A DNA stretch of 64,000 nucleotides from an uncultured Prevotellaceae bacterium. GTDB lineage: Bacteria; Bacteroidota; Bacteroidia; Bacteroidales; Bacteroidaceae. The stretch spans positions 62,001-126,000 of the forward strand of contig CADBAG010000007.1 of NCBI GenBank assembly GCA_902792635.1. Direction: 5' to 3'. Within the stretch, counting starts at the first letter, position 1, and every line of letters begins with the position of its first letter. Of this stretch, positions 391-28,069 are shown piece after piece. Both the position numbers and the translations under genes were made by a program. The notes below the pieces were generated by a model. The model worked only from the letters and a program-made list of their open reading frames with translations. It ran no database searches and was not told the origin of the DNA.

Positions 391-3300
391 TATAATCTTA
401 GTTCTCTTTCCCGTCTTGGCCATCGTGCGCGACTTATTGGCGATCACTCCAATCAGTTTGTCACCATCGATGATGAACCGCACATCACCGCCGATATCGC
501 CTGCTGACATCACCGATGGGCGCGAGAACGTCGTATTTACCTTTGCTGACGTAGGTATGTTGATTCTAGGAGTCAACTGCCCGTCAGCAATGGCTAATAA
601 ACGATTCTGCTGCCTTCTATTGATCACCGCTTCCCCCGCATTACCACGGAATAGCAATTTATCGCCGGAAGAATACTTTCCATCCAGTATACCTCCGCCC
701 TGATAGCCTTTCAGCGTAGCTATAGTGCTGGCGACTATACCAAGACCAGATGCAACAGCGGCTACCCATCCCCATGGACCCAACTTTGCGCTCTCTGCGG
801 TATAAGTAGCAAATCCGAGCACAATCTGACCGATAGCGGCCATCACTGCACCCACTTTTGCAGCAGCTCCATTACCGCCGATCTGCTGAAGTGCACTACC
901 CATGGCAGCAAGTCCGGTTGCACCCGCTGCTGCATATCCGGCAACGGCATTGAAACTGTCGCCGGTTCCGTCTCCCTGCTTCTTTGCTTCCTTGCTTGCA
1001 GCAGCCACGCTTCTAAAGGCATTAACAACATCTACAACACTGTTGCCGATCTGCGAACCGGTACCGCCCCATTGCTGGGCAAGACTCTGGATGTTCTCCT
1101 TTGCCTTGTCAATGGCAGAGGTCTCCAATTCAAGCTTAACCGGCTTGATACCTTTGCCGAGTTTGCTCAGCTCCTTATTAATGCCATCTATGCGCTTTTT
1201 AGCCTCATCCTCGCTGATGATGCCTGCATCCAATAGACTCTGCACATTCGATGCCTTGTTCTGAGCATTGCGATAGCTCTGAATCTTATCGGCCTCCGAG
1301 CCTTTGGTGATATACGTCGGCTCTACATCGGCCTCGATGGTCAGCTCTCCCTTTGTGGCAATATCAATCTGTTTCTGAATATTGGCAATGTTGGCAGAAG
1401 CTGCTACGCGTGCCTCAACAGTGGTGGCATTATCCATCTGCTTCTGGGCGTCACGAAGTTTGTCTTGCAGTTGCTCTACGTAGCTCTTAACCTCCTTCTG
1501 CTCTGGCTGCTCAAGCCCAATCTTCACCTTGAGGGCTTTGCTCTTACCCTCAAGAGCTTTATACTGCTTCTGAAGAGATTCTGCAGTGGATTCGTTATTC
1601 GTGGCATAGATCTTCTTTCTCAGGGCGCTCATCTGCTGGTCATACCAGTCAAGGGATCCCTTTAGAGCCTTCTTATCTGCATCCGTGTTGGTATTAGTAG
1701 TGTGACCACCGCCCGAGTTCCGTGCGGAGCCGCCCTCGGCTCCGGCCCCCGTTCTGCTCTGATAAGGCCTCAGGCCTTTGTTGGCTCTTGCTGCTGCCGA
1801 AGCAGACCGCTTATTCAAGTTGCGCACTCTCTGTCGTGAAGCATTGAGTGCGCGCTCATCAGCCTGAGTAGCCTTACTCGTTACCTTTATACCGCCGTTG
1901 TCAACAAGGGCGTCCACCGCCAAATCCTCTCCGGTTTTCCCTGTATGGTGTTGATTCTTGTAGTTTCGTTTATCGCGCTGACGATCCTTGCTTACCTTAT
2001 CCTCAAGCTCAAGAGCCTTCTGCATCTCCTGCTCAGCCATAGCCGCAGCTGCCGCAGCCTCAGCACGTGCATACATGGCGTCCTGCACGCTCTTTGTGTT
2101 ATTCACGAAGAAGTTCTCAGCCTGGCTTACTCCGTCGATGCCAACACCCAACTGCTTAAAGGCGTCCTGGTTGTCTTTGATAAACTTGTTCTTCTCATGC
2201 ACACTCTTGAGCGACTTCCATTTCTCCTGTAATTCCTGGTACTTTGTGAGCACGGGCGCAAGAGCCTGTTGGCGCTGCTGATCAAAGGAGTTGCCCGTTC
2301 TCTCCATCTGCTGACCGAACTTCTCAGATGCGTCACTACTCTTTGCGAAATGCTCGACAAGCTTCTCCAGTCCGATACTCAGACCCGTTATGGCTGCACC
2401 GATAATAGTAGAGGTTAGCAACCCTCGAAGCGCCCATTTCAAGGTCGTTGCGCCAATAGCCGCACCATTGAACGCCGCAGTGACTGCGTTTGTCATGGCA
2501 GTTGTCATCACCGATCGAGCATTCCACGCTGCTGTAGCTATGGAAGTTAATCCAATAACACGGGAAAGACCCATGATAGCAGCTCTCAGCTGACCAATAC
2601 CGCCCAACGCGAGCCCCACCTGTGCCATTTGGTTCATCAGTCCTTGAAATGGAGCAATGGCCTTACCAATGGCGACCTCAATGCCAGCGAAAGCCATCTG
2701 TGCTTTCTTCACCTGACCTGCGTCAGTCTTAGCCAGTTCGGCATTCATGTTACCCACGTTGTCAGTGATCGCTTGAGCCAAAGTAGAGGCCCTGGTGTAT
2801 TCGTCGCCCGTCTTGATAAGCTCTTTCTGATGATCAGTGAGTGTGATACCCACACGTGTAAGCGCACCGACATTACCCATCAATGCCTTACCCATGAGGT
2901 TAGCCACACCTACCGCATCCTCGCTTGTCGCATTCAGCCCTTTCTGCTGTGCAAGCAAGTTGTTCATTGCCGGTAGTAATGTCTGAAGAGTCTGTCGCTG
3001 ACTGGCGAATGTGGCTAATTGCTGCAAGCCGCTCTTTTGTACAGTGCCGCTGACAATGCCCAATTTCGTTTGTGCTGCAACAGAGTCATTGATAGCTGCC
3101 GTATCTGCCTCTGTAGCCCCCATACGCTGCCGCATGATGGTGGTCAGCTTGGTTTGCACCTCTGTCGCAGAATTGGCCTTGGCAACGTATCCCCCCATAA
3201 CACCGCTCAATGTACTGAGAGAATCGCTGATATTGGTATAAACCCTTGCCACCTGATTGAAGCGAATAAGAGCATCACCTAAGCGCTGACTGCCTGTTCG

Positions 3301-3408
3301 GGCAGCCATAAGATTACGCTGAAGCTCTTTCACGCTCTGCGATGCTTGGACGACAACATTCCTGCCGTCAATATTCAACCTAATGTTAAATTTTATGTCC
3401 TTTGCCAT
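385..3408 (-). CDS. Phage tail tape measure protein
   Basis: This 1007-residue protein is the longest in the phage. It follows the tail assembly chaperones in the minus-strand order, as tape measure genes do. It is rich in Ala, Gln and Lys, with long predicted helices. Hydrophobic stretches lie near residues 265-350 (including AAITGLSIGL) and 855-905 (AAIGQIVLGFATYT, then a GWVAAVASGLGIVAS stretch). The C-terminal GEAVINRRQ segment resembles the end of many tape measure proteins. It would set tail length and assist DNA passage through the membrane. A palindromic element lies in frame at 1717-1744 and encodes a Gly/Ser-rich linker. The unrelated plus-strand gene 3479-3715 separates it from the gp10-like gene. 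Confidence 0.88.
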   Translation of the reverse strand: MAKDIKFNIRLNIDGRNVVVQASQSVKELQRNLMAARTGSQRLGDALIRFNQVARVYTNISDSLSTLSGVMGGYVAKANSATEVQTKLTTIMRQRMGATEADTAAINDSVAAQTKLGIVSGTVQKSGLQQLATFASQRQTLQTLLPAMNNLLAQQKGLNATSEDAVGVANLMGKALMGNVGALTRVGITLTDHQKELIKTGDEYTRASTLAQAITDNVGNMNAELAKTDAGQVKKAQMAFAGIEVAIGKAIAPFQGLMNQMAQVGLALGGIGQLRAAIMGLSRVIGLTSIATAAWNARSVMTTAMTNAVTAAFNGAAIGATTLKWALRGLLTSTIIGAAITGLSIGLEKLVEHFAKSSDASEKFGQQMERTGNSFDQQRQQALAPVLTKYQELQEKWKSLKSVHEKNKFIKDNQDAFKQLGVGIDGVSQAENFFVNNTKSVQDAMYARAEAAAAAAMAEQEMQKALELEDKVSKDRQRDKRNYKNQHHTGKTGEDLAVDALVDNGGIKVTSKATQADERALNASRQRVRNLNKRSASAAARANKGLRPYQSRTGAGAEGGSARNSGGGHTTNTNTDADKKALKGSLDWYDQQMSALRKKIYATNNESTAESLQKQYKALEGKSKALKVKIGLEQPEQKEVKSYVEQLQDKLRDAQKQMDNATTVEARVAASANIANIQKQIDIATKGELTIEADVEPTYITKGSEADKIQSYRNAQNKASNVQSLLDAGIISEDEAKKRIDGINKELSKLGKGIKPVKLELETSAIDKAKENIQSLAQQWGGTGSQIGNSVVDVVNAFRSVAAASKEAKKQGDGTGDSFNAVAGYAAAGATGLAAMGSALQQIGGNGAAAKVGAVMAAIGQIVLGFATYTAESAKLGPWGWVAAVASGLGIVASTIATLKGYQGGGILDGKYSSGDKLLFRGNAGEAVINRRQQNRLLAIADGQLTPRINIPTSAKVNTTFSRPSVMSAGDIGGDVRFIIDGDKLIGVIANKSRTMAKTGKRTKIIL
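1717..1744 (+). repeat. Type I palindromic element, in-frame in tape measure gene
   Basis: GTTCCGTG is followed by CGGAGCCG-CCCT-CGGCTCCG, a perfect 8-bp stem. The stem differs in sequence from other copies but keeps full pairing. On the minus strand it encodes part of a Gly/Ser-rich linker (AEGGSARN). Confidence 0.75.
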
Positions 3409-3449
3409 ATCTTTTCTTATTTCGTGACAATATTATTGCTACTTATTTC

Positions 3450-3457
3450 TATCTTTG
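3450..3457 (+). promoter_or_regulatory. Bacteroidota -7 box for the 3479 gene
   Basis: TATCTTTG matches TAnnTTTG and lies 21 bases before the ATG at 3479. A clear TTTG at the usual -33 distance is not seen. The box overlaps an in-frame TTG at 3455, which argues for the ATG as the true start. Confidence 0.5.
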
Positions 3458-3478
3458 CGTTACAAAAGTAAACGTCTT

Positions 3479-4275: not shown

Positions 4276-4659
4276 CTATTCAAGTTTTACTCGTTTTAAG
4301 AGTTTCTCAAGGTTCTCTTTCGCCTCTTCTTTCGTCTCTACGTGCCCATGGTTCTGTGCAGTGCCCTTTAGGGCACTGTCTTTCTTATCCCAGGGCAACG
4401 GCAGCACGCTCTCCGGTTTCACCCCTCCCTTCGACCATGGAGCGAGATTCAGACACCCTATGATCCTTGCCCGCTCCCATGCTCCCCGCTCCTGGTTGTC
4501 ATCATGCAGGGAAATGGCATCGACGACCTTCTGAAACTCAAAAGGCGTCAGCAGACAAAAGTCCTCGAACCTCAGTCTGCCAACGCCCAATGCCCAGCCC
4601 AATAGCTCTTCTATTGTCTGCCTGTCGTCAGAATCGACTACGCTTTTTTTCCTCGTCAT
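4276..4659 (-). CDS. Tail assembly chaperone, second part (gpT-like)
   Basis: The protein has about 127 residues if started at the ATG at 4659; the same frame stays open upstream to 4728. The sequence has the typical chaperone features LTPFEFQKVVDA and WERARIIG followed by PLPWD. It overlaps the first chaperone frame (4628-4975) and is read in the +1/-2 frame relative to it. The overlap contains a run of seven adenines (4644-4650, minus strand) in GAA-AAA-AAG. A frameshift product equivalent to lambda gpGT is therefore likely, though translation restart at 4659 is also possible. A palindromic element (4351-4378) is inserted in frame near the C-terminus, encoding SALKGTAQN. Confidence 0.78.
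   Translation of the reverse strand: MTRKKSVVDSDDRQTIEELLGWALGVGRLRFEDFCLLTPFEFQKVVDAISLHDDNQERGAWERARIIGCLNLAPWSKGGVKPESVLPLPWDKKDSALKGTAQNHGHVETKEEAKENLEKLLKRVKLE
4351..4378 (+). repeat. Type I palindromic element, in-frame in tail chaperone gene
   Basis: GTTCTGTG is followed by CAGTGCCC-TTTA-GGGCACTG, a perfect 8-bp stem. Compared with the commonest copy, both arms are changed so that pairing is kept. It is read in frame on the minus strand as ALKGTAQN. Confidence 0.82.
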
Positions 4660-4975
4660 CAGTGAGAAGCAACTCAGAGAGGCGCGCAAGCTCCTCCCCG
4701 TCGATATGATCTGCGAAGTCCTGCACATCCTCGAAAGGAAATTCCTTTATCTCGCGTCTGCATGCCGACTGGCTGCAAGCATAGAGATACACAGCGAAAT
4801 CGGAAAGGCCGTTGCTCATCTCTGTCGTGTCTCTTCCGGTGATATTCTTGAATGTGAGCGCTGCGCCCATGGTAAAGTAGCAAGGGTACTCCTTGCCGTC
4901 AATCTTCACAGTAAGCCGTTTTGTGACTTCCTCCATGGCTTTCTGCATATTTCCTGATTTTGTCTCTTTCTTCAT
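4628..4975 (-). CDS. Tail assembly chaperone, first part (gpG-like)
   Basis: This 115-residue protein contains a core typical of the N-terminal tail chaperone (EYPCYFTMGAALTFKNITGRD) and an acidic C-terminus (SELLLTDDEEKKRSRF). It lies between the major tail tube gene and the tape measure, as expected for the gpG part of the G/GT pair that guides tape measure folding. Its end overlaps the next frame by 32 bases past the ATG at 4659 and includes the A7 run at 4644-4650 proposed as the frameshift site. Confidence 0.78.
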   Translation of the reverse strand: MKKETKSGNMQKAMEEVTKRLTVKIDGKEYPCYFTMGAALTFKNITGRDTTEMSNGLSDFAVYLYACSQSACRREIKEFPFEDVQDFADHIDGEELARLSELLLTDDEEKKRSRF

Positions 4976-5094: not shown

Positions 5095-5122
5095 GTTCTG
5101 TGCGCTGCCGCCCTCGGCGGCG
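5095..5122 (+). repeat. Type I palindromic element, just after tail tube stop
   Basis: GTTCTGTGC is followed by an imperfect palindrome with core GCCGCC-CTC-GGCGGC. On the minus strand it begins a few bases after the stop codon of the tail tube gene at 5127. Confidence 0.72.
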
Positions 5123-5126: not shown

Positions 5127-5681
5127 CTAAGCCGTCACCTTACCGGGATAAGTGTCAGGCTCACCGTCGTTCTCGAGATCGATGGTCCATGTTGCATCGT
5201 CCTGAGCCGGATTCGTCTCCTCGATGGCGGTGATGACAAACTTACCCTTCAGATAAGGAGCGGTATCACTGCCACGCTTGAATGCCTGCAGGTCTACGCT
5301 CTGACCCTTGCCCCAGAGAGCTGCACACTCCTCGAAGCCGTTCTCTGTGGCCTTATAGAAGCGGAAGCCCTCAGCATGAGCCGTGATGCTCATCTTTGTG
5401 ACGCCCTTGCTTGTGAAGAGAGCCTTCTTCTTTGCAGCAGTGGCCACTGGTTTGACGGCACGCTCCTTCGTCTCTGAGTTGTACTGGATATTATGGGTAG
5501 AGCACCGCGCGATGCAGCCGCCTCCTACGTTCAGCAGGATGTCGGAGCCGTTCTCATAGTCCCCGGTCTCCGTGGTTGTGCTCGAGCTCGTTCCGGTGCC
5601 ACCGTCAGCCATCTTTCGGTTTGCACCGATGATGTCAGGCGCCATACCTGCTACATGATTGATAACACTTTTTACAAACAT
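5127..5681 (-). CDS. Major tail tube protein
   Basis: This 184-residue protein lies between the tail terminator and the tail chaperones. It contains beta-rich segments such as GKFVITAIEETNPAQDDATWTIDLEND, which is typical of tube proteins. It would stack as hexamers to form the tail tube. Its N-terminus (MFVKSVINHVAG) and a Ser/Thr/Gly-rich linker near residues 26-38 precede the main domain. It is followed by two hairpins (5095-5122 and 5021-5061) that may cap the transcript. The assignment comes from size, context and fold-like pattern rather than a clear motif. Confidence 0.75.
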   Translation of the reverse strand: MFVKSVINHVAGMAPDIIGANRKMADGGTGTSSSTTTETGDYENGSDILLNVGGGCIARCSTHNIQYNSETKERAVKPVATAAKKKALFTSKGVTKMSITAHAEGFRFYKATENGFEECAALWGKGQSVDLQAFKRGSDTAPYLKGKFVITAIEETNPAQDDATWTIDLENDGEPDTYPGKVTA

Positions 5682-5712: not shown

Positions 5713-5740
5713 GTTCTGTGCGCTGCCCTTTAGGGCAGCG
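5713..5740 (+). repeat. Type I palindromic element, just after tail terminator stop
   Basis: GTTCTGTG is followed by CGCTGCCC-TTTA-GGGCAGCG, the consensus form. On the minus strand it starts six bases after the stop at 5746. Confidence 0.85.
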
Positions 5741-5745: not shown

Positions 5746-6183
5746 TTATCCTTCTCCCCATGCCTTGCATGAGAACTGAAGTTTCTGTACATAGCAGTCA
5801 AGATCCAAATCGTAGAATTCATCCACGTCCCTCAAAAGGAACTGACTGCCGGTGATACTTTTGCCATCCTCGAGTTTCAGGCTCTTGGTCCTGGAACCTG
5901 ACTCGATTGCAGATCTGACAGCTTCTGACACTCCTACACACTGGCTATAGGTCTTGGCGCAGCTCTCAATGGTGAATGTCACCTCATCCATCCCCTGGTT
6001 GTTCTTTACGGGAATATTCAGCGTACTGCCCGTATTGAAGAGAATGAACGGATACCCTTTCTCCGCATTCCTGTTATAACAAGGCTGGATAGTCTTCACA
6101 CCCAGCCCCATTACCTCTGTGCTCTGCGAAAGGATGCTGTACAAAAGCAGTCCTATGCTAAGACCTGTTACTGGTGTACTCAT
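5746..6183 (-). CDS. Tail terminator / tail completion protein
   Basis: This 145-residue protein lies between the head closure gene and the tail tube gene, the usual place of the tail terminator. The sequence starts with a helix-forming segment (GLSIGLLLYSILSQSTEV) and has PFILFNTGSTLNIP and VTFTIESCAKTYSQC segments. This is similar in layout to DUF3168-type terminators, which stop tube growth and join the tail to the head. The next gene upstream begins four bases away. A consensus palindromic element follows its stop. Confidence rests mainly on position and size. Confidence 0.65.
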   Translation of the reverse strand: MSTPVTGLSIGLLLYSILSQSTEVMGLGVKTIQPCYNRNAEKGYPFILFNTGSTLNIPVKNNQGMDEVTFTIESCAKTYSQCVGVSEAVRSAIESGSRTKSLKLEDGKSITGSQFLLRDVDEFYDLDLDCYVQKLQFSCKAWGEG

Positions 6184-8127: not shown

Positions 8128-8155
8128 GTTCTGTGCGATGCCCTTCAGGGCATCG
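8128..8155 (+). repeat. Type I palindromic element between protease and capsid genes
   Basis: GTTCTGTG is followed by CGATGCCC-TTCA-GGGCATCG, a perfect stem with a paired change from consensus. On the minus strand it lies nine bases past the protease stop at 8164. Confidence 0.85.
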
Positions 8156-8899: not shown

Positions 8900-9049
8900 A
8901 TGCGAAAGAAAGAAACATTTCAGACTTGTCTCGATCCTCACGAGGCCATGACTATCCGGGAACTTGCAAGGCGCACCGGATGCTCTACGTCATCCATTCT
9001 GCGCCAGGGCGTCAAAGATCTATGCTCGCGTTACGATGCCACCCGATGA
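8900..9049 (+). CDS. Small helix-turn-helix protein
   Basis: This 49-residue protein reads MRKKETFQTCLDPHEAMTI and continues with a short helix-turn-helix-like segment (IRELARRTGCSTSSILRQGV). It opens the plus-strand terminase block directly behind the -7 box at 8855. It overlaps the next gene by 14 bases. The HTH pattern suggests DNA binding, perhaps regulating the block. No named family is recognised. Confidence 0.6.
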   Translation: MRKKETFQTCLDPHEAMTIRELARRTGCSTSSILRQGVKDLCSRYDATR

Positions 9050-9443
9050 ACTTCTCCGGCAACTCTATGCCGCACTCGTACATAGGGATGAGGATAGGGA
9101 TACGTTCAATGATACTTTTCTCTATCTCTATTCTCATCCATGCTCTTCCGAAGAGTATGGCCATCGTTTCGTCACCCGCTTCTATTTTCTGCGGAAAGAG
9201 CGGTGGCAGCGCTCGGCACGGGAATTTTCGTTGGATACCCTCCCCGATATTCCGCAGTACGATATCGCCCTTGACGCCCCCTCGGACGCATCGGTTCCGT
9301 GCGCTGCCCTTCAGGGCAGCGGCCATAAAGCTAATAACGCCGCCGGCGTTAATAATGAAAAGCAATTTCTTAATACACTCAAACATGCCATATCTGAAGA
9401 GGCACACAAGAAAAGACGGTCGAATAGCCCGCGAAAAAAATGA
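9036..9443 (+). CDS. Unidentified phage protein, weakly sigma-factor-like
   Basis: The protein has 135 residues from the ATG at 9036. The N-terminal part (DELLRQLYAALVHRDEDRDT followed by FNDTFLYLYSH) faintly resembles region 2 of phage sigma-70-like proteins seen near terminases in Bacteroides phages. This is a guess from pattern, and no motif is decisive. The C-terminus is very basic (EEAHKKRRSNSPRKK). A palindromic element (9294-9321) is in frame in the middle. It overlaps the HTH gene upstream and the HNH gene downstream. An earlier ATG at 8964 would overlap the upstream gene much more and is less likely. Confidence 0.5.
   Translation: MPPDELLRQLYAALVHRDEDRDTFNDTFLYLYSHPCSSEEYGHRFVTRFYFLRKERWQRSAREFSLDTLPDIPQYDIALDAPSDASVPCAALQGSGHKANNAAGVNNEKQFLNTLKHAISEEAHKKRRSNSPRKK
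9294..9321 (+). repeat. Type I palindromic element in a plus-strand gene
   Basis: GTTCCGTG is followed by CGCTGCCC-TTCA-GGGCAGCG. It has the same genomic orientation as all other copies although the host gene here is on the opposite strand, so orientation is not set by transcription. Confidence 0.82.
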
Positions 9444-11886: not shown

Positions 11887-12486
11887 TTACCAAATTCTTA
11901 TTGAACCTCCTATACCTAAGAAGACATCCGGTTTCTTTGAAAACACACCGTATCCGGCACCTCCTATGATGCCCAGACTGAATGGCTGCTTCTTTACCAC
12001 CGTCTGCTTTTCTACTACCCTTACCGTCTTTCGGTATACATAGATGGAGTCGAGCTTAGCATCGTAGCCGCTCACCCATGCCTCGTAGGTGCTGTCTTGG
12101 TATCTCTTTTGAGACCTCGGCAGTGTTACCCAGGCGGTATCCAGATGTGTCGAATTCGGCACATTTCCGTCCATGCCTAAAGAGCTGCTATCGTCTGCGC
12201 GTTCCGTATGCTTGCGCATTGCGCGTGCCTCCTCAGTGTGCTCCTCTCCGCTATGGTTCTGTGCGCTGCCCTTTAGGGCAACGACAGGCACTCTTATCCA
12301 CCCAATAGTAGCCGAGTCTTTTGCTATAGGCTTAGCCGCTTTAGTGGTATCAACAGTCGTTTTAGCCTCATCTTTATGCGAGAAGTAACCTTTATGCACG
12401 CTCCATCCGATGATGAATCCAGCCACGATTCCGCAGAACATGAATGTCAGATCCTCGAGAAGTCTGTCTTTTTCTTCGATGGTCAT
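11887..12486 (-). CDS. N-terminally anchored lysis-region protein (possible spanin)
   Basis: This 199-residue protein has a membrane helix at residues about 14-30 (FMFCGIVAGFIIGWSVHKGY) and then a mainly periplasmic part. The C-terminal half (TLPRSQKRYQDSTYEAWVSG, then VYRKTVRVVEKQTVVKKQP) resembles proteins found next to glucosaminidase/holin genes in Bacteroides phages. A spanin-like role is inferred from this place and topology. Two palindromic elements (12201-12228 and 12256-12283) sit in frame in the linker and encode VALKGSAQN and EEARAMRKHTERADD-type stretches. They probably lengthen a natural linker. Confidence 0.6.
   Translation of the reverse strand: MTIEEKDRLLEDLTFMFCGIVAGFIIGWSVHKGYFSHKDEAKTTVDTTKAAKPIAKDSATIGWIRVPVVALKGSAQNHSGEEHTEEARAMRKHTERADDSSSLGMDGNVPNSTHLDTAWVTLPRSQKRYQDSTYEAWVSGYDAKLDSIYVYRKTVRVVEKQTVVKKQPFSLGIIGGAGYGVFSKKPDVFLGIGGSIRIW
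12201..12228 (+). repeat. Type II palindromic element, in-frame
   Basis: GTTCCGTAT is followed by GCTTGCGC-ATT-GCGCGTGC (one mismatch, one G-T pair) and then CTCC. It shares the GTTCCGT head with type I elements and is one of three copies (also 24995 and 26526). Confidence 0.7.
12256..12283 (+). repeat. Type I palindromic element, in-frame
   Basis: GTTCTGTG is followed by CGCTGCCC-TTTA-GGGCAACG (one mismatch in the stem). It lies 27 bases from a type II copy inside the same gene. Confidence 0.82.
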
Positions 12487-13613: not shown

Positions 13614-13644
13614 GTTCCGTGCCGCCCTTTTAAGGGGGCGGCAC
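13614..13644 (+). repeat. Type I palindromic element after the lectin-like tail protein
   Basis: GTTCCGT is followed by GTGCCGCCC and GGGCGGCAC arms (perfect 9-bp stem, 8-base loop). On the minus strand it lies 21 bases past the stop of the 13665 gene. That is the position where diversity-generating retroelements have a hairpin/cruciform. Confidence 0.78.
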
Positions 13645-13664: not shown

Positions 13665-14438
13665 TTATTGAAGTGCTGAAACTGGACGCACATGACTCTT
13701 GTTCTGGGACTTATTGAGCCAGCCGTGGAGGAGGCCATCGCCGAGGCCCAAGCCCCATGCGAGGGAGGCATTTTTCTCCGTAGAAAGCCAATACCAATCT
13801 CTAACGAGTTGCGTGGCTCCATTGATGAGAGAGAGGCAGTGGTTAATCTTCATCATGTTAGCGTAGACCATCATCCACTCAGCTACAGACGGAAGCCACC
13901 AACAGCCTGCGGTCAAGCCTTTGCCGTTGGCATTGGTGCGTGAGTAGAGGTTACAGAAGCCTGCGGCATACTGTGCAGTATTGGTAACGCTCTTATCAGA
14001 GCTTGCTGCGATAATCTTTGCAGTCTTGGCTTTTCCATCCCAATCGCTCATAGCGACAAGTCTGTCTGTGATGAGAGGGTTACCAGTGGTAATGTCGGCA
14101 GACGACCATAACAGATAGGATGTGGATTCAGTAGGCGCAACAACGAGCACATGGCCTCCTTCGACCACTACCACACCTTCTGCGACTTCGCCTCCGTTCT
14201 GAATACTCGGCCAATACTGCGGCTTAACCATCAGTGGGAAGTCATCATCCTTTCTGTGATACATGATGAACACGTTATCATAGATGTCGTTGAGATCGAA
14301 GCCTCCTAAGATGGCAGACCTCAAACTTGCCTTGCTGATGGGGAGGATTCCTCCGTTCTTGTCAACGAGAATTGCATAGTTATCATCGTTGAACGTGGTA
14401 ACTGGAGTGTAGCCAGTTATTACTTTTGGTTTACTCAT
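13665..14438 (-). CDS. Tail-tip protein with C-type-lectin-like end, probable DGR target
   Basis: This 257-residue protein has a C-terminal segment with CWWLPSVAEWMMVYANM, then DWYWLSTEKNASLAWGLGLG and a VRPV ending. This is the pattern of DUF1566/formylglycine-enzyme-like C-lectin folds used as variable proteins by diversity-generating retroelements. From NAS to QN, 15 of 23 codons are NNC, as expected when AAC codons of an adenine-mutated template are randomised. A perfect hairpin (13614-13644) lies 3' of the variable end. No reverse transcriptase or template repeat is visible in this window, so the retroelement would have to lie left of position 1 or elsewhere, or be lost. The protein lies last in the tail-fibre block, suggesting receptor binding. 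Confidence 0.8.
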   Translation of the reverse strand: MSKPKVITGYTPVTTFNDDNYAILVDKNGGILPISKASLRSAILGGFDLNDIYDNVFIMYHRKDDDFPLMVKPQYWPSIQNGGEVAEGVVVVEGGHVLVVAPTESTSYLLWSSADITTGNPLITDRLVAMSDWDGKAKTAKIIAASSDKSVTNTAQYAAGFCNLYSRTNANGKGLTAGCWWLPSVAEWMMVYANMMKINHCLSLINGATQLVRDWYWLSTEKNASLAWGLGLGDGLLHGWLNKSQNKSHVRPVSALQ

Positions 14439-19019: not shown

Positions 19020-20594
19020 TCATTTCTCGTATGTTGCAGTGGCAGTCATACCGTCTCTAAGAGTGGCAGTGGCCATGAACTTTATGCTCTTAGGGATATA
19101 GCCGTTGAAATCCATATCAGCCTCGGTCAGAACAATACTCTTACCACTGTTGGCATGGTTGACCGCCCACAAATTGTCAGAGGCGGCGCGCTCGTTTCCG
19201 TCTGCATCCACGGAATATCTCGTCCATGCAACATCAGTATCCTTAATATCTTTGGTAACATCTTGGTTGTAGAGCGTGCAGACAAGATGCAGGGGGATAT
19301 TGATATTCTCGGGGTCTACAACTTGGTCTGTTCCTTCCTCAAACTCGGCAGTGAAGTTAGGGTTGCCCTCTATCATTGCCCAGTCGGTGTTGTTCCATGC
19401 AGGGGCGGTGGTAGTCAGATTCTTGCAGCAACGCCATTTGCAACCATAATACCACACGTCAGAGGTCTCATACACACCAGTGTCAGGATTGGTGGCTTCG
19501 CAGTAGTACTTGCCTCCTTGCACAAACTGACCCTCATCAACATAGTTCGGCTCTCGCTTCATCGTCCACTTGTTGATGCGGATGATGTCTCGTGTGACTA
19601 TGCCGGGCGCGTATAAGTAATCTATTCCGTCAATCAGTGGCAGAGGATTACCATTCTCGTCAGTGATGGACTTCACAAACTCGGGTAGGGTGCCAATGAC
19701 AGAGCCATAGTTCTCTTTGCCAATAATCGGCTTGGTGACATTGACAAGATGCACTATCCTACCCTCATTGGAGGAGAGATAGAAGCAAGACTGCAACGCT
19801 GTGTCTGTCTGGTGCCCCCAGCGCGAAATTTTCATCAACGAACACGGAGGATAGTTCTTGCCCGCAGGTGTATCACTATCAGCGTACATAGACACTTCGA
19901 TGTAGTTGTTAGCCGTGTTCACTGAGTTCACTCTGAACCATGCCGTGTAATACGTGCCGCTGCCTTTCGCAAGGGTGTTCATTATGGCCCTCAAAACAGA
20001 ACCTTCCTTGATAGCAGTGAAGTAACCATCCCATTTCCTTTTGAGGTGCAGCCCATACGTTCCATCGCCTATGTTGTCAACGGTGTCAATGGTGTCTGTT
20101 TCGGTGAAAACTTGGTCACCTTCGAGAGCCGCCAGGCGGTTAACGATAAGCTCAAGAGCCTCTATGGATGAGCGAGAACGGATGCTCTCAAACTCGGCAT
20201 TACCTTTACTGTCAACACGACCGCCTGTGCCTGTGAGGATGCCCTGTGTGAAGTCACCGAAATCGGCATTCCCCTTGACCTTGGAGCCGCCCATCGTCAA
20301 GGTGTAGGCCGTCTCATCGTCCTTGTCTTTGCGAAGAAATACGTCCTTCAGAGACTCATTGGCATTGGCGATCCATGCCCGTATGGTGTTCCACACCGAG
20401 CTGCCTCCGTCGAGTTCCTTGGCCGAAGAAGCATGGGCGGACTCATCAGCGCGCTGGGCATGGGCGGCCTCATCAGCATTGATGGCGTGCTGAGCCTCTC
20501 CGTTACCGCCCACCACGGTAGTGCCGTTCTGTACACCGCCGTTTACGGCGGTGTCTCCGCTTCTTTTTCTCTTTATGATATCAACCTCGATCAT
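19020..20594 (-). CDS. Tail protein with Ala/His/Glu-rich N-terminal repeats
   Basis: This 524-residue protein has N-terminal residues about 30-60 with short repeats of the type NADEAAHAQRADESAHASSA, likely a trimerising stem. It then has a beta-rich part with WFRVNSVNTANNYIEVSMYA and MKISRWGHQTDTALQSCFYL, resembling fibre proteins that attach to the tail tip. Position right after the 892-residue tip protein suggests a baseplate-linked fibre. No enzymatic motif is seen. Confidence 0.68.
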   Translation of the reverse strand: MIEVDIIKRKRSGDTAVNGGVQNGTTVVGGNGEAQHAINADEAAHAQRADESAHASSAKELDGGSSVWNTIRAWIANANESLKDVFLRKDKDDETAYTLTMGGSKVKGNADFGDFTQGILTGTGGRVDSKGNAEFESIRSRSSIEALELIVNRLAALEGDQVFTETDTIDTVDNIGDGTYGLHLKRKWDGYFTAIKEGSVLRAIMNTLAKGSGTYYTAWFRVNSVNTANNYIEVSMYADSDTPAGKNYPPCSLMKISRWGHQTDTALQSCFYLSSNEGRIVHLVNVTKPIIGKENYGSVIGTLPEFVKSITDENGNPLPLIDGIDYLYAPGIVTRDIIRINKWTMKREPNYVDEGQFVQGGKYYCEATNPDTGVYETSDVWYYGCKWRCCKNLTTTAPAWNNTDWAMIEGNPNFTAEFEEGTDQVVDPENINIPLHLVCTLYNQDVTKDIKDTDVAWTRYSVDADGNERAASDNLWAVNHANSGKSIVLTEADMDFNGYIPKSIKFMATATLRDGMTATATYEK

Positions 20595-20624: not shown

Positions 20625-23303
20625 TTAATAAGTCTCTTCCAACGACAAGTTCTCCGTTCCGTCCATAAGGTTCCTTCCAACGCTTCTCACGTAGAAGTTC
20701 TTCCCCAATGCCGCATGCTGGTATAGCGGCAATGGCCATGTAAGAGCCTCATCATCGATGACGTTCTGAGTGAGTATAATCCTTGGCTGATGCAGCTCGT
20801 CATAATAATGGCTCACATACAGTTTCTCGGGTTTCCCGCTCTCTCCGGAAATCTTATCATCGATATTCAGCAAAGCCACCCCGTTAGGACCGACAACTGA
20901 TGTATACATCATTTTCCCGCTCAAGCCGTAGGCGCTCATTTCGTCGGAGGTAAAGCCGGAATGCACAAGGAATTCCAGGTCATCTTTCTTGTTATAGAAA
21001 GTATGGCTGCAACGGCTCATGTAAACAATATCGCTATCCCCGTCATCAGCAACGTCAGAGTATAACTTCACCGAGAAGTCTTTAATCAAGATATCACTCA
21101 CATGCGCCATCAATGGAATATTGCTCGTGCCGTATTTCGTATGTCTGAACATGGTATGGTGGCGGGTCACATGGTAGTCAGCCCATACCGGGTTATCGAT
21201 GCCCAATATCTGGAAGATCATCTTACCGTGAAGCTTGGCGTCGTAAGGCAGAGGTATGGCCATACCCTTGTCCGCACTGATGTTTGTATCATAGTCAAAG
21301 TTAGAAGCAACATTGAAGTCTGTACCAATCAGCTTGTCACCGATCTTGGGATTGATGCCGATGGTGAACGTTTGCTGGAGATAAGCATCGATACCGTCCT
21401 GCGTGTTTCCGCCGCACTCGGCAAGCGTCTTATAAGTCTGCCAGGAGAAAGCGTCCACGCCCCCTTGCTTGCTGCGATCCTCTACGAGTACCATGTCGCC
21501 GATCCTCAGCATGCACCACAGGATATCCACCTTCTCTACCGTGTCCTTGCCGTCCGATGTCTTGTATTCGTACAATTCAGGGCCGTCTTGCGTATAAGGT
21601 ACATAACCCTTTCTTGTTCCTGTCTGAGCACCTTTCTTCCACCATTCAAAAGCAAGATAGCGCCCATGCTTGTCCACACGGCTTGGAGAGACCCCTGCTA
21701 ATATGCCGGCCCGCCCATCGAGAATAGAAAGATTATTGTCCTTAACATAATTGTTCCAGAAATCATCGCCCGACGAATACTTACGCACTTTCTCCACCTC
21801 AAAGGATGTATCCATGATCGGGCAAAGCGTAAGTGTTCCATCAATGACAAGATAGTTATGATATCCCTCGCCTGATACATCAGCAACCGATGGGGAGTAT
21901 ACGGCCGTAGAGTCTCCTCCCTCATAGCTCATGAGCGGCATAGCTGCTTTAATGGCATCGTCTGTCGGATAGTGTCCGGTATTGGTATCATCTTCATTGC
22001 CATTGACGGAAATAATAAGCTCATCCGTCATACTGATGGTCGTCTGCCTACTTGTATCCCCGGTGCCAGGCTTATGATCAAGCGTGCCAACTTGCACCAG
22101 CAGAGCGCCTAAGTTTGTTCTCAGTTTGTCCGTCACATCCTCAGGGTAAGCAGGATTGTCCTGTGTGCTGTCCTTTATGGCAGCAGCTACCCAGTCCGTC
22201 ACCTCACTCAGCTCTCCCTTGACCGTATCGATGCCCGACCCGCTGCCTATCTTCCAGTACACATTGCGCATAACCCTTATGAGCCAGTCTTTCCATGCCT
22301 GACTATTATAGCCACTGTCGCTATGCCCTTTGATAAGATCAAAGAAAGCACGGGCCGGCTCTACCTTGTTTCCATCGGCAGCATATTCGGTAACATAGTA
22401 CTGTCTTCCGCCCATAGCCGGTATTCGTCCGCTGCTGTCAAGTGGTGATTTTATGACCGTATCATCGCCTTTAGGACTCACCGTAAGGCTGAGCTGATTG
22501 AACACTTCCTGAACGTCGAGCTGAGTATCCATATCAGCGACATTATCAGCAGAGAGAGTAATAGTCTTGTCGTTACCCTTTCTTATCGTCTCCCACGAGA
22601 AGATGTAGAACGAAGTGCCGATCTGCACGATATGGAGATCCAAGTACTTCATCAATGCTTCTAACACCTCCAAGTACGTCTTGCAGTCGTCGGCATCGTC
22701 ACCTAAGAATGCCATCGTGCTCACCGACAGAGACGTGAAAATAGCGGATGCCTCACCCCCTGGCAGTGCCCTTGACCCGTCATAGCTCAGACTGTAGTCC
22801 GTTCCTCCTGTTGCCACCTTCAGACACTCTTTGATCAGCGCGTCAAAGGTGCATAATGCCGTCTTCTCCCGCTCTGCGGTATACGTTGTTGAATCATTTA
22901 CTCCTCTGAATGGCGAATACTGCAACGATGACAAAGAATCGACGCACGAAAGCGAAAGGTCATCATACCGCTCGTTGAAAGGCTGCGAGAATGTCCTTGG
23001 TTCCAACCATCCGGAAAAGATAATGGCATCGCCTCTCTTTACCGTTACCGCTACGTCCTTATATTCCTTGGCGAACAGCTCCGGCACATACCTCAGTGCA
23101 TGCAGATTGATGGTGCAAGAGTGTTGCAGTACCGCATCGAGGCTGTCATTGATGGATCCGTCAATCGTCACAGCGTCCTCTGCTGCATACTCGAGGTCTG
23201 ACCCGGGTTCAATGCTGATATCGGCAGACGTCGACCCGGCAATGACAATGCTCACCGTGATCGTTGACCCCATCTTGTTAACAAAGCTTCCTTCTATCTT
23301 CAT
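20625..23303 (-). CDS. Large tail tip / hub protein
   Basis: This 892-residue protein is the largest of the tail block after the tape measure. The N-terminal 130 residues have SADISIEPGSDLEYAAEDAV and AVTVKRGDAIIFSGWLEPRT, the sort of oligosaccharide-binding/beta-sandwich sequence found in distal tail (tip) proteins. The middle contains KTYLEVLEALMKYLDLHIVQ, then FYIFSWETIRKG. It probably anchors the fibres and closes the tail. It begins the tail block that, unusually, follows the portal instead of the tape measure. Confidence 0.7.
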   Translation of the reverse strand: MKIEGSFVNKMGSTITVSIVIAGSTSADISIEPGSDLEYAAEDAVTIDGSINDSLDAVLQHSCTINLHALRYVPELFAKEYKDVAVTVKRGDAIIFSGWLEPRTFSQPFNERYDDLSLSCVDSLSSLQYSPFRGVNDSTTYTAEREKTALCTFDALIKECLKVATGGTDYSLSYDGSRALPGGEASAIFTSLSVSTMAFLGDDADDCKTYLEVLEALMKYLDLHIVQIGTSFYIFSWETIRKGNDKTITLSADNVADMDTQLDVQEVFNQLSLTVSPKGDDTVIKSPLDSSGRIPAMGGRQYYVTEYAADGNKVEPARAFFDLIKGHSDSGYNSQAWKDWLIRVMRNVYWKIGSGSGIDTVKGELSEVTDWVAAAIKDSTQDNPAYPEDVTDKLRTNLGALLVQVGTLDHKPGTGDTSRQTTISMTDELIISVNGNEDDTNTGHYPTDDAIKAAMPLMSYEGGDSTAVYSPSVADVSGEGYHNYLVIDGTLTLCPIMDTSFEVEKVRKYSSGDDFWNNYVKDNNLSILDGRAGILAGVSPSRVDKHGRYLAFEWWKKGAQTGTRKGYVPYTQDGPELYEYKTSDGKDTVEKVDILWCMLRIGDMVLVEDRSKQGGVDAFSWQTYKTLAECGGNTQDGIDAYLQQTFTIGINPKIGDKLIGTDFNVASNFDYDTNISADKGMAIPLPYDAKLHGKMIFQILGIDNPVWADYHVTRHHTMFRHTKYGTSNIPLMAHVSDILIKDFSVKLYSDVADDGDSDIVYMSRCSHTFYNKKDDLEFLVHSGFTSDEMSAYGLSGKMMYTSVVGPNGVALLNIDDKISGESGKPEKLYVSHYYDELHQPRIILTQNVIDDEALTWPLPLYQHAALGKNFYVRSVGRNLMDGTENLSLEETY

Positions 23304-23362: not shown

Positions 23363-23390
23363 GTTCTGTGCGCTGCCCTTTAGGGAAGCG
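23363..23390 (+). repeat. Type I palindromic element after portal stop
   Basis: GTTCTGTG is followed by CGCTGCCC-TTTA-GGGAAGCG with one stem mismatch. On the minus strand it starts six bases past the portal stop at 23396. Confidence 0.8.
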
Positions 23391-23395: not shown

Positions 23396-24664
23396 CTACT
23401 CCTGGCTGCTCGGGTCGTTCTGCTTCTGGTTGTTAGACCCGTTCTTATTAGGGTCAGGCTGCTGCTGTGCTTGCTTAGCATCCAGTGGCTTATCAATGGG
23501 CACGAGGTTGCTCTGAATAAACGCCTGGTCTCCTCCATCAATCGGCTCAAAGTCAAGATCGCGCCTGATGTCGTTGCTTGTGATTGCTCCAAGCTGATAG
23601 AGTTTCGTATACCACTCAGCCAACGCCGCTTTATCTGTCCGGATGACCTTGGCAGTGTTGAACTTGATCTCGTAGTGGTATTTCTCACTTGGAAGGAAGA
23701 TCTTGCGCCACATCTCAAGTTCAATGCGCGTCAGCCATGGCTGCAACGTATCAGTGAGGAAGGAGAGCTGCGTTGCCTCAATGGTGGAGTAGCTGCTTTT
23801 GCTCAGATCGTATGCTTTCACGGGTGAAACGCCAAAGAACCTGCAGATATCCTCTACCTGATATTTGCGGGTTTCGAGCAACTGTGCCTGTTCAGGGTTC
23901 ACAGTGATGGGCTTATAGTCCATGTCGGCCTCCATGATCGCAACGCCATTGGGCTTTCCGGTCACCGGATCTGTCATCTTGTACCACGACTCAAGGAAGT
24001 CTTTCTTCTGCTGCTTTGTCAGCACGCGGTTCACCGACACGATACCGGATAGATTGGCACCGCCCTTGAAGAATCCTCTTGCATGGGCATCAGCGTCAGT
24101 GGCTAAGGTAATGGTGTTGAGCGCAAAGTCGAGTGTGGAGATGCCATGCTCTCCGTCTTTGGAAAAGTTGATGATATGCACCATGTCGCCCGGCTCTATC
24201 CACCCATACTTAGGATGAGCAAAAGCCATGATATGCTGATCGCTGTCGTCGACAATCGTCACCTGGGTAGCAGGAAGGAACTCAAGTGAGGTAGCATAGC
24301 CGTCCCTGTTGCGATGGATATAGGCATAGCCGTTGCCATGCATCAGCGTGGATATCATGATCTGCCACAAGAAATCATACCTGCTCATCCTCGCATTTGG
24401 CTCCGATGTGATGACCCCATAAGCCGGATAGTCGTTGGCACGATGCTTATACCCATCGTTGCCAATCTTCAGTACCTCGATAGGCAACTGAGCGATGGAA
24501 CTCGAAATCACGTCTACGCATCGGTACACGGCTGACAGTCTCAATGCCTGTCTGACCGATTTCCGGTTACTGTTACCAAAGAGCAGCCCAATGGAAGTAC
24601 CATCGCCAGGACTGGCAGAATCAATGGCGGCTGACCGCTTGAAAATCTTTGAAAAAATACTCAT
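23396..24664 (-). CDS. HK97-family portal protein
   Basis: This 422-residue protein is a clear HK97 portal. It has RQALRLSAVYRCVDVISSSI near residue 40-60, FLWQIMISTLMHGNGYAYI, then FGVSPVKAYDLSKSSYST and LTRIELEMWRK, followed by a Gln/Asn-rich C-terminal tail. It forms the ring through which DNA enters the capsid. Here it lies about 15 kb from protease and capsid genes, directly upstream of tail tip genes. A perfect 10-bp inverted repeat (24679-24701) lies 14 bases before its start. Confidence 0.93.
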   Translation of the reverse strand: MSIFSKIFKRSAAIDSASPGDGTSIGLLFGNSNRKSVRQALRLSAVYRCVDVISSSIAQLPIEVLKIGNDGYKHRANDYPAYGVITSEPNARMSRYDFLWQIMISTLMHGNGYAYIHRNRDGYATSLEFLPATQVTIVDDSDQHIMAFAHPKYGWIEPGDMVHIINFSKDGEHGISTLDFALNTITLATDADAHARGFFKGGANLSGIVSVNRVLTKQQKKDFLESWYKMTDPVTGKPNGVAIMEADMDYKPITVNPEQAQLLETRKYQVEDICRFFGVSPVKAYDLSKSSYSTIEATQLSFLTDTLQPWLTRIELEMWRKIFLPSEKYHYEIKFNTAKVIRTDKAALAEWYTKLYQLGAITSNDIRRDLDFEPIDGGDQAFIQSNLVPIDKPLDAKQAQQQPDPNKNGSNNQKQNDPSSQE

Positions 24665-24994: not shown

Positions 24995-25025
24995 GTTCCG
25001 TATGCCGGCGCAGTGCGCTGGCCTC
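24995..25025 (+). repeat. Type II palindromic element
   Basis: GTTCCGTAT is followed by GCCGGCGC-AGT-GCGCTGGC (complete stem with one G-T pair) and then CTC. A type I copy starts two bases later (25027), so the two kinds lie in tandem. Confidence 0.72.
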
Positions 25026-25026
25026 A

Positions 25027-25053
25027 GTTCTGTGCGCTATCCTAAGGGTAGCG
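25027..25053 (+). repeat. Type I palindromic element overlapping a stop codon
   Basis: GTTCTGTG is followed by CGCTATCC-TAA-GGGTAGCG, paired with one G-T. The stop codon of the minus-strand gene at 25037 lies inside the stem, so the element supplies the last codons of that gene. Confidence 0.75.
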
Positions 25054-25786
25054 TAAGCTTTATCTTGACAGCATCCTTCTTTCTGAGACACTTGTCACAA
25101 GGCCAGAAAGCCTTACCTTCATCGATGCCGTGAGGCATGACTGCTATGTAGATGTACCCGTCATCAGTCCTATACCTGAACCCTGCCTTGCTATAGTCTT
25201 CTTCGTCCCTGTCTTTATCCGTATGGTAGGACATACGTTCGATATCCAGCAATTGCATGATGCGAAGAATCTTATAGATGAGGTCTGATCTGAAATACTG
25301 ACCGTCTATAAGCACGGGGAATTCATCCACCGGCACCTTCTGGCCCGGATGCAGATATACGCGGCCGGTACCTGAGCAGATAGGGCACTCTGCCGGAAGG
25401 CTATATTCCTCACCATTCTTGGCAGTATAATCAACACTTACCTCGCCCTTCCCGTGACATTCCTCGCATTCTCCGTAGTCTTTCAGTGGTACGGCTTCAA
25501 TCCCTTTCTCTAAGACGTCACGTCTCAAATCATATTTGCTGTCATCGCTAAGAGTATGCAGCATTTCATCGACATTAGGCTTGTCAAGATCCTTATAAGC
25601 TGGTTTACTGACATATTTAAGTGCCAGCTCTTCGTCAACTGCCACCATCAGATGCCCGTCTGTCGCTACGAGTTTCTGGTCTTGCCAGAATGGAGCCACA
25701 TATGCCGGAAAATATTCTTCCGACGCGTCAGGATCAGTCGCTAACAGCAGCGCATCCTTGAAATCCTCACTAATAATCTCTTTCAT
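25037..25786 (-). CDS. Phage protein with DnaJ-type zinc motif
   Basis: This 249-residue protein has two cysteine pairs of the kind CxxCxGxG: GECEECHGKGEV and ECPICSGTGRVYL (residues about 115-155), a zinc-binding hairpin as in DnaJ. A further CDKC is near the C-terminus. The N-terminal part (LVATDGHLMVAVDEELALKY) resembles phage proteins that echo the sliding-clamp N-domain; this is only a weak similarity. It lies at the end of the early/middle block. The function is not known. The last codons come from a palindromic element. Confidence 0.65.
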   Translation of the reverse strand: MKEIISEDFKDALLLATDPDASEEYFPAYVAPFWQDQKLVATDGHLMVAVDEELALKYVSKPAYKDLDKPNVDEMLHTLSDDSKYDLRRDVLEKGIEAVPLKDYGECEECHGKGEVSVDYTAKNGEEYSLPAECPICSGTGRVYLHPGQKVPVDEFPVLIDGQYFRSDLIYKILRIMQLLDIERMSYHTDKDRDEEDYSKAGFRYRTDDGYIYIAVMPHGIDEGKAFWPCDKCLRKKDAVKIKLTLPLG

Positions 25787-26374: not shown

Positions 26375-26525
26375 GATAGTTTCTTTTTTTAAAACTCCCC
26401 GGCTCTCACGAGTGAGGGAGTATGAACATGGATCATTTTACTTATTTCCCCACGCCTGGGGACCACCTTTATAAACTTTATGAATATTATGAAATTGAAT
26501 AAAGAGAGGTTATTTCTTCCCATGC

Positions 26526-26555
26526 GTTCGGTATGCACGCGCAGTGCGCGGGCCT
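26526..26555 (+). repeat. Type II palindromic element after a stop codon
   Basis: GTTCGGTAT is followed by GCACGCGC-AGT-GCGCGGGC (one mismatch) and then CTCC. On the minus strand it begins eight bases after the stop of the 26563 gene. Confidence 0.7.
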
Positions 26556-26562
26556 CCTATGC

Positions 26563-27471
26563 CTACAGCCCCACTTTCTTCCTGAAGAAAGCCTCGGCAG
26601 CTGCACAGTCTTTCTCAATGATACCCGGGTTGTCGTCGAACCACTCCTTGACCTCGATGTTATACTTCAGTGCTGCGGCGCTGGCTCTCTCGGCAACCTC
26701 CGGAGACGTCATGCGGTTGGACAGCGCCTGAAGGGCTTCCTTACAAGCCTTGTCGCGGTGCAGATCCTGCGCCTCTTCGGTATCAAGACTGCCCGCAGCT
26801 ACCTTGAACTTCTCCTTCAGCCTTCCCAGACGTCCGTCGGCAAACTCCTTGCGGATATCCGCCTCGTATCTGTCCAGGCACAACTGCATGTAAGCATCGA
26901 AGAAGGTGCAGGCGTAGCAAAGTACATTGTAGGCAGTGAAGACGTAACTTGCCAGCTCCACATCCCGAGTATACCTAACCTTCAACAGGAAGTTTGAAAT
27001 GCTCATGCGGATGATGAAGACATCGTGATTCCATGAGTCCTGCCAGGAGTCCAGATAGTCCCTGATGAACTGACTGCGGTCGATATTGAAGTTATCCGTG
27101 CCACTCAGCACCACTTCCAACCGTTTGTCATACCGGTCCATGAATCGCTCACACTCCTGGCATGCAGCTCTGATGCCTTTCTTCTTCCATTTGGGAGAAT
27201 CTTTCAACTTGTCGATGGCATCATTGAGCGCGATGAAGGCAACTTCGTTGACCGGCGCCACCATAGAGTACCATCTTGCGCATGCCTCTCCATGGTTCCG
27301 GTATTCCTCGACCATGCTCTTGATAGCAGCGTTGCGGATGGCGTTGGCTGATGCATGGATCATGCCGTATCTGCGGCCAAATTCACCCTGAAAAGGTGCT
27401 TTCGCGGCGTTTTTGGCCGCATTATGGACGTTTTGCGCTATTTTAGCGCTATTTTCGCTTGTTTTATCCAT
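26563..27471 (-). CDS. Hypothetical helical phage protein
   Basis: This 302-residue protein is mostly helical and rich in Ala, Asp and Lys, with segments IKSMVEEYRNHGEACARWYS and VVLSGTDNFNIDRSQFIRDY. It has many conserved-looking aromatic and cysteine residues but no motif I can name. It lies in the middle of the early/middle operon between the putative nuclease group and small membrane proteins. The function is unknown. Confidence 0.6.
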   Translation of the reverse strand: MDKTSENSAKIAQNVHNAAKNAAKAPFQGEFGRRYGMIHASANAIRNAAIKSMVEEYRNHGEACARWYSMVAPVNEVAFIALNDAIDKLKDSPKWKKKGIRAACQECERFMDRYDKRLEVVLSGTDNFNIDRSQFIRDYLDSWQDSWNHDVFIIRMSISNFLLKVRYTRDVELASYVFTAYNVLCYACTFFDAYMQLCLDRYEADIRKEFADGRLGRLKEKFKVAAGSLDTEEAQDLHRDKACKEALQALSNRMTSPEVAERASAAALKYNIEVKEWFDDNPGIIEKDCAAAEAFFRKKVGL

Positions 27472-27538
27472 TTCCGATTAACTATACCATTTTGATGTTT
27501 TACGCGATTTTTGCCCCACTTCTGCAAGCGTAGCGGCA

Positions 27539-27874
27539 TTATAAGCGTATATTTGTGCGTAGACATACCTTTGAATAGTGGCGTGAATCGATGAAAACTG
27601 CCGGAATATCCTCGAAAAACTCCGAACTGACGGCCGTATAGACCACTTTCTGGGTCTTTTTCTCGACTACCGCTGTCATGTAAGCCGTACGAGGGTAATA
27701 GTGGCTTCTGCTGCCTGTATGCAACTGTCTTTCCATCTCGGCGGCATCCCAGGAGCATCTTTCGAGCCTGATCCGCTCTTCGGCTTCGATGGATGCAGCT
27801 CTCGCCCGCAGTTTTCTGACTCCTTCCTCCCTTCTTGCCTCGATTCTCGCTTTAGCGGATGGTGTCATACCCAT
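27539..27874 (-). CDS. Hypothetical small phage protein
   Basis: This 111-residue protein has a basic helical N-terminal half (SAKARIEARREEGVRKLRAR, then EERIRLERCSWDAAEMERQL). It also has a beta-like C-terminal half (TAYMTAVVEKKTQKVVYTAV). It lies 12 bases after the stop at 27887. No family is recognised. Confidence 0.5.
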   Translation of the reverse strand: MGMTPSAKARIEARREEGVRKLRARAASIEAEERIRLERCSWDAAEMERQLHTGSRSHYYPRTAYMTAVVEKKTQKVVYTAVSSEFFEDIPAVFIDSRHYSKVCLRTNIRL

Positions 27875-27886
27875 ACCTCGCTCGTT

Positions 27887-28069
27887 TTATGGTTGAACAT
27901 CGGCTTTCTCGTTCTGTGCGACGCCCTTTAGGGTATCGCCCCTGTGCTCATCCGCCCATCTTGCGCCGGCTTCAAAAGCACACTTGCGTGAAAGGTACCC
28001 ATGTCTGCCCGCTGCTATGGCGTAGGCACTTGCTTCTCTCGAAATCTGTCTGTCTCTATCCATATCCAA
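27887..28069 (-). CDS. Small phage protein with element-derived C-terminus
   Basis: This 60-residue protein, MDMDRDRQISREASAYAIAA and on, has a helical pattern (CAFEAGARWADEH) seen in many tiny Bacteroides phage proteins. Its last part (DTLKGVAQNEKADVQP) is encoded by the palindromic element at 27911-27938, which probably replaced the original end. The function is unknown. Confidence 0.55.
   Translation of the reverse strand: MDMDRDRQISREASAYAIAAGRHGYLSRKCAFEAGARWADEHRGDTLKGVAQNEKADVQP
27911..27938 (+). repeat. Type I palindromic element, in-frame
   Basis: GTTCTGTG is followed by CGACGCCC-TTTA-GGGTATCG; two stem positions are weakened, so this copy is decaying. It is read in frame on the minus strand as TLKGVAQN. 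Confidence 0.72.

Follow-up and report, generated by a model that had tools for sequence, protein, structure and literature searches.

The stretch analyzed here, called the window, comprises 64,000 nucleotides of an uncultured Prevotellaceae bacterium (GenBank assembly GCA_902792635.1, contig CADBAG010000007.1, positions 62,001 to 126,000 of the forward strand). It contains a prophage, recognizable by terminase, portal, protease, major head, tape measure, tail, and lysis genes, with an antirepressor gene at 32074–32892 and the end of a phage integrase gene at 1–390. The prophage genes lie mostly on the minus strand; the terminase genes, a small gene preceding them, and the integrase gene are on the plus strand. 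Dispersed through the prophage are 15 copies of a short hairpin family, every one on the plus strand. The hairpin is a tagged host repeat resembling repetitive extragenic palindromes (REPs), and it probably invaded the prophage from the host lineage.

Fifteen copies of a tagged hairpin in the prophage

The family is built from a tag, GTTCYGTG, an 8-bp stem, and a 4-nt loop. An earlier reading of the letters alone (hereafter, the sequence-only reading) had listed 14 copies with paired stems and a single orientation. All 14 start coordinates were recovered in the window sequence, the stems do pair, and the shared orientation holds, also for a 15th copy, starting at 20526, that had been missed. 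The head GTTCYGT described by that reading is confirmed as well, with 26526 reading GTTCGGT. The copies are as follows.

1717–1744, plus strand: type I, in frame (antisense) in the tape measure-like gene 385–3408, residues 555–564
4351–4378, plus strand: type I, in frame (antisense) in gene 4276–4728, residues 117–126; a PLPWDKK motif, also present in phage locus L078, stands directly before it
5095–5122, plus strand: type I, 4 nt past the stop of major tail gene 5127–5681
5713–5740, plus strand: type I, 5 nt past the stop of gene 5746–6183
8128–8155, plus strand: type I, between the protease and major head genes
9294–9321, plus strand: type I, in frame, sense, in plus-strand gene 8964–9443; loop TTCA
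12201–12231, plus strand: type II, inside gene 11887–12486
12256–12283, plus strand: type I, in frame (antisense) in gene 11887–12486, residues 68–77
13614–13644, plus strand: type I variant with a 9-bp stem and an 8-nt loop, lying 20 nt beyond the stop codon of gene 13665–14438
20526–20553, plus strand: type I, in frame (antisense) in gene 19020–20594, residues 14–23; the copy missed earlier
23363–23390, plus strand: type I, 5 nt past the stop of portal gene 23396–24664
24995–25025, plus strand: type II, adjoining the type I copy at 25027 and 11 nt from the end of gene 25037–25786
25027–25053, plus strand: type I variant whose sequence overlaps the 3′ end of gene 25037–25786 and provides its stop codon
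26526–26556, plus strand: type II, 6 nt past the stop of gene 26563–27471
27911–27938, plus strand: type I, intergenic between 27539–27874 and 28077–28430, with no substantial open reading frame (ORF) ending beside it

Six copies thus lie inside genes (1717, 4351, 9294, 12201, 12256, and 20526) and another six lie 4 to 20 nt past a stop codon (5095, 5713, 8128, 13614, 23363, and 26526). The type I copies read in frame in antisense (1717, 4351, 12256, 20526, and one in another phage locus, L257) use one common reading frame, which ends in GSAQN or a similar peptide. By reading, a TTTA loop goes with a stop codon in one of the three antisense frames, the other two being open. In copy 9294, a TTTA loop would put TAG in its frame; the actual loop is TTCA.

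A search for the fixed head followed by an 8-bp stem and a 4-nt loop, requiring at least 7 of 8 stem pairs and allowing G–T, gave 11 matches in the window, all on the plus strand and none on the minus strand, compared with a mean of 0.09 and a maximum of 1 in 200 dinucleotide shuffles. Copy 13614 passed, though its best hairpin has the longer stem and loop listed above; copy 25027 failed. Type II is the weaker class, comprising three copies with stems that are imperfect by reading. A GGATAAG motif near four phage copies was considered as a tail of the element and dropped; at 4351 it corresponds to the WDK codon run, which also occurs in L078. There is one weak extra model match at 22158–22185 on the plus strand (18.8 bits), inside gene 20625–23303.

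The family in the chromosomes of the host and its relatives

The covariance search suggested by the sequence-only reading was run on the whole genome with a model (R1) trained on ten window copies and one chromosomal copy (C4:62033), and it found the family beyond the window. Of 2326 first-look candidates, 150 were scored, which yielded at least 13 chromosomal copies outside the prophage at E ≤ 0.002. In total, 40 rows were obtained at E ≤ 10, and the chromosomal tally used below is 14, as one further copy, C42 (E = 0.82), was kept because its orthologous sites are occupied. The earlier remark that the chromosomal part lacks the element is therefore right for the window and wrong for the genome, with its 13 strong copies outside the prophage, and the idea of an element confined to phage is not supported: the hairpins form a chromosomal repeat family in three related Prevotella genomes.

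Among 398 genomes of the genus, scanned with 18 scored candidates per genome so that low copy numbers elsewhere may be missed, 15 or more matches occurred only in the host genome (G000), G305, and G307, and nine genomes had a match at E ≤ 0.01. Identical match positions identify G305 as Prevotella assembly RUG136 (the record of L055) and G307 as UBA2725 (L053), both of which we take to be rumen assemblies; at E ≤ 0.05, these records hold 17 and 35 copies, respectively. Single weak matches were seen in G062, G108, G142, G259, and four further genomes. A strict pattern scan of GTDB species genomes returned 22 stretches. Three Prevotella assemblies account for 20; the other two, in Motilibacter and Paraburkholderia (22.5 and 12.9 bits), were taken as chance. 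Hence, the family looks narrow in range.

For structural analysis, we aligned 64 of 66 chromosomal copies (those of length 28) with 10 of the 15 window copies, leaving out 13614, 25027, and the three of type II; the 74 aligned rows represent 65 distinct copies. Stem pairing was observed in 97.5% of cells over the distinct copies, versus 73.2% in shuffles, and compensatory changes on both sides were found in 134 cells, versus 41.1. Sliding the stem register lowered these values greatly at every shift and destroyed the covariation signal. Of the 64 chromosomal rows, 52 carry the tag GTTCTGTG or GTTCCGTG and the remainder close variants; 57 have a TTTA or TTCA loop. The first stem pair is C–G (44/65) or T–A (20/65), and the second is mostly G–C (47/65).

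The 66 chromosomal copies represent 44 loci, 18 of which are occupied in two or three species; for the host genome, the orthologous site is occupied for 11 of 14 copies. Seventeen orthologous pairs were picked by hand, some sharing a copy and one being out of register; identity is 87% in the element, 49% in the 40 nt before it, and 57% in the 25 nt after it. This sequence comparison suggests that the element is under constraint, with a bias toward recognizable copies, as decayed ones go unseen. Some sites are filled in one species and empty in another. At two sites of L103 (5950–6240 and 4150–4720), the place that the element takes in a sister species is filled in the host genome by different sequence, which at one of the sites consists of other hairpin repeats. 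Such intergenic sites seem to turn over quickly. In L031, L159, L173, and L174, a second hairpin with a similar stem, its tag absent or altered, closely follows some chromosomal copies.

Orientation, density, and related phages

Chromosomal and phage copies differ in orientation relative to genes, called here as the longest nonoverlapping ORFs. At 38 of 44 chromosomal loci, the tag is preceded by a gene of the same strand (with “=” for a gene on the element strand, these crude ORF calls gave 30 “==”, 8 “=x”, 5 “xx”, and 1 “x=”). Considering intergenic copies only, the preceding gene is on the same strand for 37 of 44 in the chromosome and for 0 of 9 in the phage (Fisher P = 3e-6). A strict gene-before-tag rule gave 56 same and 9 opposite for the 65 chromosomal copies that have an upstream gene (one of the 66 does not), or 38 to 6 by locus, versus 12 opposite and 3 same for the phage (P = 1.5e-6 by copy and 5e-6 by locus). 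The three phage exceptions (1717, 12201, and 12256) count as same because they lie inside minus-strand genes but after plus-strand genes. Judged against the gene in which it lies or after which it comes, every phage copy but one is antisense (14 of 15); the sense copy is 9294. Nearly all copy-bearing phage genes share one direction, so that only 9294 can tell an antisense rule from a constant genomic orientation. Within called ORFs, start codons unchecked, lie 21 of the 66 chromosomal copies, 14 sense and 7 antisense.

GC skew at fourfold degenerate sites, taken as an indicator of replication strand and averaged over plus- and minus-strand genes, is negative on the element strand for 42 of 62 usable chromosomal copies (G307, 25/33; G000, 8/13; G305, 9/16), a tally in which orthologues count twice and gene strand may confound; the other 4 of the 66 copies have too few sites. 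Uncorrected skew tables were dropped, as coding strand alone shifts the skew. The density of the family in the prophage relative to the rest of the genome is 76-fold higher for strong model matches (10 versus 13) and 106-fold higher for all copies (15 versus 14), a comparison that the training of the model on window copies tilts toward the window.

The compared stretches of related phages, whose terminase is 60–74% identical and which are mostly fragments, are without any copy; no match with E under 3 came from the related phages L069–L076, and none at E ≤ 5 from another 51 phage loci, many of them fragments. These copy-free relatives speak against a general need for the element in this phage type, as far as their sequences indicate. 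In addition, some genes and spacers are shorter in relatives. At 8128, five relatives have a shorter protease–head spacer from which the hairpin is absent. Across copies 12256 and 12201, the protein of gene 11887–12486 exceeds its relatives in L246, L247, L249, and L250 by 33 residues and that in L248 by 19; alignments to three further relatives are too loose in this part to be counted. The plus-strand gene 8964–9443 is longer at 9294 than its relative in L069 (the L074 alignment ends before the element). For gene 4276–4728, tblastn found no relatives in viral sequences. The length gains in genes 11887–12486 and 8964–9443 support the earlier view of a dispersed palindrome able to sit in frame in proteins. 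In contrast, no clear length change accompanies the copy at 20526, and for the copy at 4351 the difference from L217 amounts to 5 residues.

Further phage-borne copies occur in L010, L011, L260, and L257, whose locus is repeated in L259; a match in L258 is weak (15 bits). Copies in the three of these loci with clear context (L010, L257, and L260) are antisense, that of L257 being in frame in a 1895-residue protein. An arginine-rich ORF on the element strand of L260 was taken, by reading, as an antisense shadow. The copy in L011 is ambiguous, being antisense to an integrase gene and sense to a small ORF. It is the sole copy found in assembly RUG137 (L011, 1219–1246; L050, 6763–6790), and the adjoining phage integrase gene is 74% identical in DNA over 358 bases to the integrase at the left end of the window. 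The phage contig in L010 (3668–4957) carries one copy with a reverse transcriptase about 0.7 kb away.

Relation to known repeats and interpretation

REPs in the broad sense are short palindromes flanked on one side by a conserved, unpaired tag, and they lie between unidirectional or convergent genes and rarely between divergent ones; the family has this build, and its chromosomal copies have this placement. The tagged GTAG and CGTC REPs, as described in PMC3733652, are likewise hairpins of 20 to 40 nt that carry an unpaired tag at one end. They occupy intergenic places close to 3′ ends and in some cases lie within genes or provide a stop codon; CGTC-1 matches the family in stem (8 bp) and loop (4 nt) length. 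However, the tag GTTCYGTG is not that of GTAG REPs, and where a Y1 transposase gene flanked by the repeat is expected, four loci show such genes with other hairpins. The family also lacks the CGTC tag and the A–T at the first two stem pairs expected of CGTC REPs, and it differs from all tagged REPs in its strong concentration in phage. The hairpin is therefore a tagged REP-like host repeat that fits neither class and should be filed in neither.

The palindromic elements of Rickettsia, of which PMC3733652 classes RPE-4 and RPE-6 with the CGTC REPs, are similar in being palindromic insertions read in frame in proteins; RPE-1 is longer there than our element, the tag differs, and those elements sit in Rickettsia genes rather than phage genes. 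The subterminal hairpins of IS200/IS605 elements and the hairpins of TnpAREP systems (PMC6006769) share a short conserved sequence on the 5′ side. Left and right end hairpins bounding tnpA would be expected for IS200/IS605, but no such end pair was seen around a gene, and the IS200-type gene of the host (L009) is adjoined by other hairpins, without a copy of the family. Mobile elements of Pseudomonas are reported (PMC3390384) to be devoid of REPs, whereas the prophage is 76- to 106-fold enriched. Literature searches found no report of this hairpin family among the papers listed, and no paper on such palindromic hairpins in Prevotella. Repeats of this REP-like kind are already known; what is unusual is the enrichment in phage. 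REP-like repeats serve as marks of old, stable chromosome, and a prophage with a high density, reversed orientation, and in-frame copies in virion genes would offer a tractable system for studying REP movement, strand entry, and spread by phage.

Our preferred explanation, to which we assign a probability of about 0.6 as a whole, is that a repeat family of the chromosome of a small rumen Prevotella clade entered the prophage and multiplied there; the assignment to a host-clade REP-like family and the invasion are its somewhat firmer part. By analogy with REP biology (PMC6006769, PMC3733652), the repeat might spread as a single-stranded hairpin handled in trans by a host HUH (Y1, IS200-like) enzyme, which we rate at a little under even odds. 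Insertions would persist at the least harmful places, in flexible linkers or shortly after stop codons. The uniform orientation of the phage copies could reflect the strand exposed during phage replication, a tentative and rather doubtful suggestion; single-stranded DNA handling by IS200/IS605 favors the lagging strand (PMC6006769).

Among the alternatives, a selected RNA hairpin that acts on mRNA (stability, processing, or translation between cistrons) and is kept by function would account well for the orientation in the host, with the same-strand preceding gene at 38 of 44 loci, often between a stop and the next start, and for compensatory changes that keep copies while flanks diverge. The copies in L010, L257, and L260, all antisense, are gene-oriented as well. 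Such a function does not account for the phage, where orientation is reversed (0/9 versus 37/44 intergenic copies) and six copies lie within coding sequence; furthermore, Rfam has no family over threshold in 1–34000, and the conservation figure is biased to still recognizable copies. We consider it unlikely. Similarly unlikely is a division into two forms, a host form that follows genes in sense at fixed intergenic sites and a phage form with its own flanks, type II, and the opposite orientation. The latter would insert in one strand of replicating DNA, be tolerated even in virion protein genes, and have multiplied in phage genomes as a parasite or passenger; phages might then be the vehicle of the family between Prevotella species, as suggested by the single RUG137 copy beside a phage-type integrase.

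Signals whose orientation serves the phage in replication, packaging, or recombination would explain a very high density and the one orientation of all 15 copies, including 9294 in a plus-strand gene, but are improbable given the chromosomal copies and the copy-free relatives and further loci, many of them fragments. The stem and loop lengths and the position past stops also resemble the target hairpins of diversity-generating retroelements, which according to PMC3240598 follow the variable repeat and have a 7- to 10-bp GC-rich stem and a 4-nt loop, and the copy in L010 does have a reverse transcriptase nearby. This link was rejected as highly improbable: the PF00078 reverse transcriptase model had no match in the host genome at E ≤ 0.001, the common loops do not fit GRNA, and the 15 copies stand beside unrelated genes. 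Ordinary intrinsic terminators or chance palindromes, for which only the location of several copies just past stop codons speaks, can be set aside with equal confidence; by reading, no T run follows, shuffles gave 0.09 matches versus 11, and the nearly invariant head and the covarying stem refute them.

Several observations weigh against the host-repeat explanation and its proposed mechanism. Copy number in REPs usually exceeds 100 (PMC2817692), but the family reaches 14 to 35 per genome in candidate-limited counts. Seven of the eight stem pairs change on both sides somewhere, a count also reached in 55 of 500 shuffles. No target duplication or constant insertion unit is readable, as intergenic flanks diverge, and the lack of a clear length increase at 20526 and the training of the density model, both mentioned above, point the same way. 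An A directly precedes the tag of 52 of 66 chromosomal copies and of 4 of 15 phage copies (Fisher P = 2e-4), and type II seems restricted to the prophage: none was found elsewhere in the host genome, in six other genomes (≤2 mismatches), or, by exact pattern, in viral contigs. From these differing flanks and the prophage-only type II, the phage copies may be a separate lineage.

No mobilizing enzyme could be linked to the family, and a connection to REP-associated tyrosine transposases is not supported. The host has one Y1 match, with the IS200/IS605 family above and the REP-associated family below the cutoff, and no transposase was found among the scanned prophage proteins, which did not include all small ORFs. 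Nine of 14 Y1-bearing genomes (among 20 hand-picked) have no family match, the copy nearest to a Y1 gene is about 6 kb away, and the Y1 genes in three genomes (L009, L145, L147, and L158) are flanked by different hairpins. In L009 (1330–2980, contig C25 of the host genome), as in L145 and L147, the Y1 gene lies between alternating 7-bp hairpins, GTGCCTC..GAGGCAC and CAGCCTC..GAGGCTG, which constitute a second, unrelated REP-like system in these genomes.

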